Below are positions 19,434 to 20,361 of a stretch of DNA of 64,000 nt, one piece after another. Each line of letters opens with the position of its first letter. Position 1 is the first letter of the stretch. The position numbers and the translations under genes were made by a program. Below the pieces are notes generated by a model, which saw only the letters and a list, made by a program, of their open reading frames with translations, was not told the origin of the DNA and searched no databases. The stretch spans positions 1 through 64,000 of the forward strand of contig MDYQ01000441.1 of the NCBI GenBank assembly GCA_003024175.1, in the 5' to 3' direction. Source of the stretch: Planoprotostelium fungivorum. Its lineage: Eukaryota; Evosea; Variosea; Cavosteliida; Cavosteliaceae.

Positions 19434-20361
19434 TTATTCGATGGACAACAGCTCCACTTCGAAGATGAGGGTAGAGTTGGGAGGAACCGTAATACAGTCA
19501 AGTGTTCATGATGATGCAGTGAAATAAAAATGAATAAAAAGGATATCTTCCATCAACTCCCTTCTTTCCATAGGCCCAATGGGGCTCGATGGTGAGTACC
19601 GACACCTCACCGACGCTCATGGTCAATAGACCTTCGTCCCACTACACAGATGAGTCCTCACCCCCTCTCGTCACTCACCCCACGGATGACTTTCCCTATT
19701 CCTACTTTGAACTTGAGTGGAGGTGGTAGCTTCTTCTTGATGGCCGTCATGTTTTCATCGAAGACTTTTCCATCTTCGAATGAACCTGGGATGATTGAGA
19801 CGGATCGAAATGAGATTCTCTTCTTTCACCTTTGTATCGAACGCTCACAGTATCACCCCTCTTGGGGTATGTCTTCTTATCTCCCGCCTTCTTCACTGAC
19901 TTCTTGTATCCAATGGGCTCCTACATCGCCACGTCAGACGCACAGTGGATGAGATCGATCACATTGGCTCTCGCTTCCTCTTCTGCCTTTCTCTTCTCTT
20001 CCTCCTCTTTGGCTTGTTTGGATTCACCTTCCAACTTGACAGTTTCAGTGATGGGCGTAATTCGTATTGCTCACAAATTTGGCGTCTCCCTCTGGTCCGG
20101 TGAAGGCTTGTAATTCGTACATTCTGTTGTATGCCGTCACTGCATGATGCTTCTTGGCTCTCTTCTCTCCCTCTGCATCTGCGAGGTTGAAGTGTTTCAG
20201 CAGCTACATGATGGATTCAGTACGCTCTATCTATATAATGCTACCTCTTGAGACGCATTTTCTTTGAGGAAGGTCATCAATTGACCTTTGCTGATCAACT
20301 CTGGACCTTTTTCGATGGCTAGTCTCTCAGCGGACCACTCAGGTTGGCGTCTTTCACTCAT
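19434..20361 (-). CDS. FKBP25-like peptidyl-prolyl isomerase (BTHB + FKBP domains)
   Basis: FKBP-type prolyl isomerase with the architecture of FKBP25/FKBP3. The N-terminal helical bundle reads MTFLKENASQELLKHFNL and AVTAYNRMYELQAF. A charged linker (KQAKEEEEKRKAEEEAR) leads to the FKBP domain: YKGSFEDGKVFDEN, KVIRGWDEGLLTM, EPHWAYGKKGVDGRVPPN, TLIFEVELLSIE. The substrate-pocket Tyr, Phe-Asp, Val-Ile, Trp and Tyr are all present, so it should be active. FKBP25 proteins are nuclear and bind nucleic acid. Six GT-AG introns are accompanied by one AT-AC intron (separate entry). The TAA stop lies inside an AATAAA, giving almost no 3' untranslated region. It is divergent from the ZRSR2-like gene with 104 bases between start codons. 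Confidence 0.93.
19489..19546 (-). other. U12-type AT-AC intron in the FKBP25-like gene
   Basis: Read on the minus strand, the 58-base intron starts ATATCCTTTT, has CACTTGACTG near its end (a match to the U12 branch site, core CTTGAC) and finishes GTATTAC. The branch A lies about 10 bases from the end, the spacing usual for this class. Removing it joins GGAAG to GGTTCC and gives AYGKKGVDGRVPPNSTLIF, the conserved FKBP sequence, with no missing or extra residue. No GT...AG choice in this interval keeps the frame. The intron also contains AATAAA-like sequence on the other strand. Confidence 0.88.

Follow-up and report, generated by a model that had tools for sequence, protein, structure and literature searches.

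Minor (U12-dependent) splicing differs greatly between amoebozoans. According to the parts of Larue and Roy (2023; PMC10639083) available to us, it ranges from severely reduced in Acanthamoeba to enormously expanded in Physarum, with 265 minor introns in Protostelium aurantium and 90 in Pelomyxa schiedti; these parts give intron counts and the presence of snRNAs, not snRNA sequences. Papers citing Larue et al. (2021) attribute to Physarum polycephalum more than 20,000 minor introns and a transformed minor splicing. Introns of the U12-type AT-AC class have an RTATCCT 5' site, a TTRAC-type branch site near the 3' end and a terminal AC; U12-type introns tend to lie outside phase 0 and to occur singly among the GT-AG introns of a gene.

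Here we describe an intron that matches the class in all of these respects, without essential difference from it. Four kinds of evidence bear on it: its sequence signals, a splice that restores the protein, the presence of genes for some of the splicing machinery, and other introns that fall in its class. Together they lead us to predict, with a probability of roughly 0.94, that minus-strand 19546..19489 truly belongs to the minor (U12-dependent) class of AT-AC introns. That it is spliced, and by the minor machinery, is what we infer from sequence. The 5' site would be recognized by pairing with U11 and the branch site by pairing with U12, after which a tri-snRNP containing U6atac, aided by CENATAC, would displace U11, and excision would join 19547 to 19488.

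The intron and its host gene

The window, by which we mean the whole 64,000-nucleotide stretch of DNA analysed, carries on its minus strand a gene with seven exons and six introns that starts with an ATG at 20361 and closes with a TAA whose last base is 19434 (Table 1). Its predicted product of 221 residues combines an N-terminal BTHB domain (37.5 bits) with a C-terminal FKBP_C domain (103.1 bits), both above the Pfam cut-offs. The same architecture is found in human FKBP25/FKBP3, which is also the best match among solved structures (PDB 2mph, E 1.3e-50), and the gene product is a predicted FKBP25/FKBP3-like prolyl isomerase. The other introns of the gene are all GT-AG (5/5) and 37-44 nt long. 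The last of the six, ATATCCTTTTT...CACTTGACTGTATTAC, had been described in the initial annotation as an AT-AC intron with a U12 5' site, a CTTGAC branch site about 10 bases from its end and a terminal AC, and its coordinates, termini and signals proved exact, the branch A lying 9 nt from the intron's final base. The further statement that the window's remaining introns are GT-AG held for the host gene, and a permissive motif scan of the examined DNA, of which 122 rows were inspected by eye, yielded no second convincing U12 intron within the window.

Table 1. Positions of the host gene, its AT-AC intron and the snRNA genes with an upstream box
Feature	Position	Strand	Basis or remark
U12-type AT-AC intron, 58 nt, phase 2 (Arg codon split AG/G)	19489..19546	-	sole exact core-restoring splice; FKBP3 alignment
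5' splice site ATATCCTTTTT, 11 nt	19536..19546	-	fits RTATCCTTT; pairs with U11 5' end
Branch site CTTGAC	19497..19502	-	branch A at 19498
Exon 1, FKBP25-like gene	20245..20361	-	starts with ATG
Exon 2, FKBP25-like gene	20075..20203	-	preceded by GT-AG intron 20244..20204
Exon 3, FKBP25-like gene	19963..20034	-	preceded by GT-AG intron 20074..20035
Exon 4, FKBP25-like gene	19830..19920	-	preceded by GT-AG intron 19962..19921
Exon 5, FKBP25-like gene	19679..19785	-	preceded by GT-AG intron 19829..19786
Exon 6, FKBP25-like gene	19547..19641	-	preceded by GT-AG intron 19678..19642
Exon 7, FKBP25-like gene	19434..19488	-	terminates in TAA; preceded by AT-AC intron 19546..19489
U6 gene	L078		upstream box
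U4 gene (one of two)	L004		upstream box
U12 gene	L001		upstream box
U6atac gene	L005, G000:C4:75292-75414	-	upstream box
U11 gene	L002		upstream box, one mismatch

We enumerated 86 GT-AG, GC-AG and AT-AC splices with donors no more than about 40 nt away from the 5' site in either direction and introns of 20-159 nt. Only the AT-AC splice 19546..19489 gave AYGKKGVDGRVPPNSTLIFEVELLSIE, an FKBP core in which no residue is added or lost and which can be aligned with human FKBP3 over the junction of exons 6 and 7 (WAYGKKGQPDAKIPPNAKLTFEVELVDI in 2mph, WAYGKKGVDGRVPPNSTLIFEVELLSI in the product). The assertion that removal restores the product exactly and that no GT-AG choice works was therefore borne out: the five GT-AG options all start from donor 19557, and each deletes or scrambles the conserved end. 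Ten further AT-AC options preserve the downstream frame but insert or replace residues, and the only in-frame alternative sharing the U12 5' site, 19546..19504, ends upstream of the branch A. If the sequence were retained, the frame would stay open for 15 codons before a stop. A retained sequence or a broken gene yielding a truncated FKBP would accommodate this open stretch, and would presumably cost the protein the last strand of its fold; the downstream exon, however, keeps this C-terminal strand in phase, and the remaining exons are free of stops. We regard the absence of an intron here as extremely improbable.

The window contains a single copy of the 11-nt 5' site (100 dinucleotide shuffles averaged 0.00); genome-wide there are 11 copies, compared with 2 for the reversed pattern. 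At two of these 11 places a TTRAC lies 38-45 nt in, at L017 one is found only at 62 nt or beyond, and eight are without TTRAY within 130 nt, so that most places with this 5' site are probably not introns. The U11 5' end pairs with the FKBP site over +4 to +10, with one G-U. The branch site lies near the 3' end, but the 5' half of its TTCCTTRAC motif is poor, and its pairing with U12 is weak (-3.0 kcal/mol, two TTCCTTAAC introns reaching -11.2 and -11.9).

Minor-spliceosome genes and further predicted introns

The genome searched comprises 36.86 Mb in 471 contigs. U12 (67.9 bits) and U11 (72.3 bits) each gave one match over the Rfam gathering threshold, as did U6atac (RF00619; 58.5 bits, gathering 33), and all three were recovered by cmscan. 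In 14 control genomes, those named being bacteria and archaea, U12 matches occurred in none, U11 matches in 3 and U6atac matches in 11, none over the cut-off. Two protein families matched in 0/14 controls. CCDC84/CENATAC (PF14968) was detected in three stretches of contig C121 (best 48.3 bits, 56.4 with neighbours, cut-off 25.3), two of them with a stop inside (one TGA, one TAG). PF18036, which we take to be the SNRNP25 domain family, gave the same 34-bit match, with three TGA inside, on C81 and on C105. The in-frame stops in both families are taken to be introns. CENATAC has been reported to promote AT-AN minor intron splicing, according to the consulted part of PMC8280824.

U4atac was not found. 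A genome search with RF00618 at E up to 10 returned two matches, both ruled out as major U4 (88.9 bits). A U6atac-complementary 17-mer gave 84 matches at up to 3 mismatches, equal to the 84 of its backward control; a scan of 30 of these loci for a U4atac-like pattern gave no U4atac, one locus being U6atac itself, and the most U4atac-like locus, L026, was rejected on inspection. Scanning the examined loci for TGCTAA with an Sm-like site recovered both copies of U4 and a third, unconvincing place, again no U4atac. The initial annotation had called for a genome search for minor-spliceosome parts; those recovered were U11, U12, U6atac, CENATAC/CCDC84 and the PF18036 domain.

A CCCATAA box lies upstream of the genes for U6 (-64), one U4 (-59), U12 (-59) and U6atac (-62), and with one mismatch at -59 of the U11 gene. 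The background is 15 occurrences in 654,212 bases of examined DNA, counting both strands and including the snRNA genes. We take the letters of the box to be like those of the dictyostelid DUSE motif. In position, too, it resembles that element, which the consulted part of PMC7919456 locates some 60 nt ahead of non-coding RNA genes in dictyostelids, at Pol II and Pol III genes alike. The box would suggest, without proving, that these snRNA genes are expressed, and it may likewise fit an amoebozoan, short of proof.

Several other small RNA genes were observed. A second U4 gene (G000:C375:96283-96403, L003) matches the other one at 96.5% identity across 144 bases, carries no CCCATAA box near the usual distance and is possibly a silent copy. 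A U6-like copy of 63 bits with a differing 5' part (G000:C74:56503-56602, L079) directly follows a U6 gene of 95.1 bits in tandem, and L025:2627-2728 (minus strand) resembles the box C/D snoRNA snoZ101 (35.1 bits, below the gathering threshold of 44).

Further introns were sought from the branch motif TTCCTT[A/G]ACT, taking the 16 places of TTCCTTAACT and 60 of the 106 places of TTCCTTGACT, which gave 70 distinct places (13 + 57). RTATCYT occurred up to 100 nt upstream at 18 of the 70, compared with 2 for the reverse complement and none for the backward motif, a permutation or an altered 7-mer; RTATCCT occurred at 16, compared with 0, 2, 0 and 1 for four permutations. Upstream 5' motifs were found at 8/13 TTCCTTAACT places (binomial P ~9e-11 against the background rate) and at 10 of the 57 sampled TTCCTTGACT places, nine of which also had a matching 3' end. 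It is this upstream motif, not the number of branch-motif occurrences, that provides the evidence: genome-wide, TTCCTTGACT was not enriched (106 versus 100 backward) and TTCCTTAACT was rarer than its backward control (16 versus 232). The backward sequence TCAATTCCTT, with its 232 occurrences, possibly represents small-subunit rDNA copies.

We kept 17 of the 18 places as predicted U12-type introns, excluding L128, which is of low complexity and without a 3' site; RTATC near-matches with other letters at +6/+7 (L083, L087, L093 and others) were also excluded. Five of the 17 are AT-AC, or 6/18 with the FKBP intron. Several of the kept introns have strong support from an uninterrupted coding sequence. 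In L064 a GT-AG intron joins LLTGTPIQN to NMSELFHVLNFVDP within the SNF2 domain of an SNF2 ATPase, and in L074 an AT-AC intron interrupts what we take to be a Rab7-like GTPase at LMN/QYVSKKFSTHYKATIGADFL. Long frames are kept across the predicted introns of L062, L068 and L076; coding evidence is weak for L065 and L061, and the 3' end is ambiguous for L068 and L069. A 40-kb sample of contig C90 added one possible GT-AG U12-type candidate, L057. Across the 18 introns (17 kept plus the FKBP intron) positions +8 and +9, which were free in the search whereas +1 to +7 were partly fixed by its pattern, are loose, with T in 9/18 and 11/18, respectively.

Stretches 98-100% identical lie on different contigs in three pairs of loci (L061/L075, L062/L063 and L070/L073). 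Together with PF18036 on both C81 and C105, we read this as a probable sign of a duplicated or redundant assembly.

A divergent U6atac gene

The sole U6atac gene found lies outside the window. Its segment for binding the 5' site reads GAAGCCGA, compared with GAAAGGA in the Rfam consensus; in longer context this is GUGUAAUGUGAAGCCGAGAGAAGGUUAGCA versus GUGUUGUaUGAAAGGAGAGAAGGUUAGCA, and the gene has GAAGCCGAGAG where the consensus has GAAAGGAGAG (altered form GAAGCCGAGAGAAGG, canonical form AAAGGAGAGAAGG). The AAAGGA that would pair with UCCUUU of the 5' site is absent from it. In the standard register U6atac mismatches the FKBP site at +6 and +7, and the best duplex of the segment with this site reaches -0.9 kcal/mol, compared with -7.1 for the Rfam consensus, while U11 keeps -6.4. 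A register with two C's bulged out pairs the FKBP site from +4 to +9 at only -0.1 kcal/mol including the bulge cost. The energy of this register was computed for nine sites out of the 18: it was positive where +8 is A or C (four sites) and between -0.1 and -3.3 where it is T (five sites). RTATCGG, the type of 5' site that would fit the altered U6atac, gave 24 rows in the examined DNA, two of them with TTRAC downstream.

The found gene might instead be a pseudogene or mis-assembled, with a canonical U6atac missing from the assembly, a concern for the machinery and not for the intron. It is a single copy in a single assembly, and a profile and motif search of that assembly found no second U6atac gene. 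Yet it scores 58.5 bits and has conserved ends, a terminal T run and the CCCATAA box at -62 as in U6, U12 and one U4; moreover, canonical GGAGAGAAGGTTAGCA was not found in the assembly at 0 mismatches, the only 1-mismatch matches being this gene and one place reading GGAGAGAAGGTGAGCA. We think this alternative unlikely.

If the gene is functional, the lineage may splice ordinary RTATCCT introns with a rewritten U6atac segment (GAAAGGA to GAAGCCGA), a proposal that we make tentatively and rate somewhat below even odds. It would work in one of two ways. In a catalytic-stage helix with a 2-nt CC bulge, U4-A17 and C5-G16 would be followed by C6-G13, U7-A12, +8-A11 and +9-G10. Alternatively, 5'-site fidelity would rest on U11 and proteins, not on U6atac pairing. 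The loose +8 and +9 positions would fit fidelity by U11 and proteins. They are also consistent with a weaker U6atac helix, without proving it, as pairing with U11 would be relaxed to the same degree.

The poor pairing of U6atac with the 5' site and the failure to find U4atac in the genome could also be accounted for if the intron were real but excised by the major (U2) spliceosome, which removes a few AT-AC introns in other species. Against this, the 5' site has the U12 motif instead of the U1-type ATAAGT, a branch 9 nt from the end leaves no space for a pyrimidine tract, the five major introns of the gene are shorter and GT-AG, and other U12-type introns and CENATAC are present in the genome. 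We consider removal by the major spliceosome very improbable. Our preferred minor-class reading carries points against it, namely the U4atac not found, the weak 5' side of the branch site, the two U6atac mismatches and the stops in the protein matches.

Relation to amoebozoan systems

The initial annotation had valued this intron as informative about which lineages keep the minor spliceosome. Amoebozoans rich in minor introns were known before, 265 and 90 having been published for P. aurantium and Pelomyxa schiedti, and the intron is correspondingly less informative than claimed; it is ordinary in kind. Like those two amoebozoans, as the available parts of the survey describe them, this genome has many predicted minor introns and genes for minor snRNAs, and motif counts suggest far fewer than the more than 20,000 of Physarum. 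The latter, according to the citing papers, is an amoebozoan whose minor spliceosome has altered parts; unlike there, the change here affects the part of U6atac responsible for 5'-site binding. Titles and abstract openings of the literature searched on U6atac in Physarum, amoebae and protists (including PMC10639083, PMC2846911 and PMC8329584) do not describe this change, and we do not claim that it is unpublished. The putative U6atac variant is the less expected result and a lead worth following.

In an apparently amoebozoan lineage, the intron provides one more well-supported AT-AC example, accompanied by part of the machinery. A natural genome with U12-type introns and U11 but a changed U6atac segment would test how much of the helix with the 5' site is needed.
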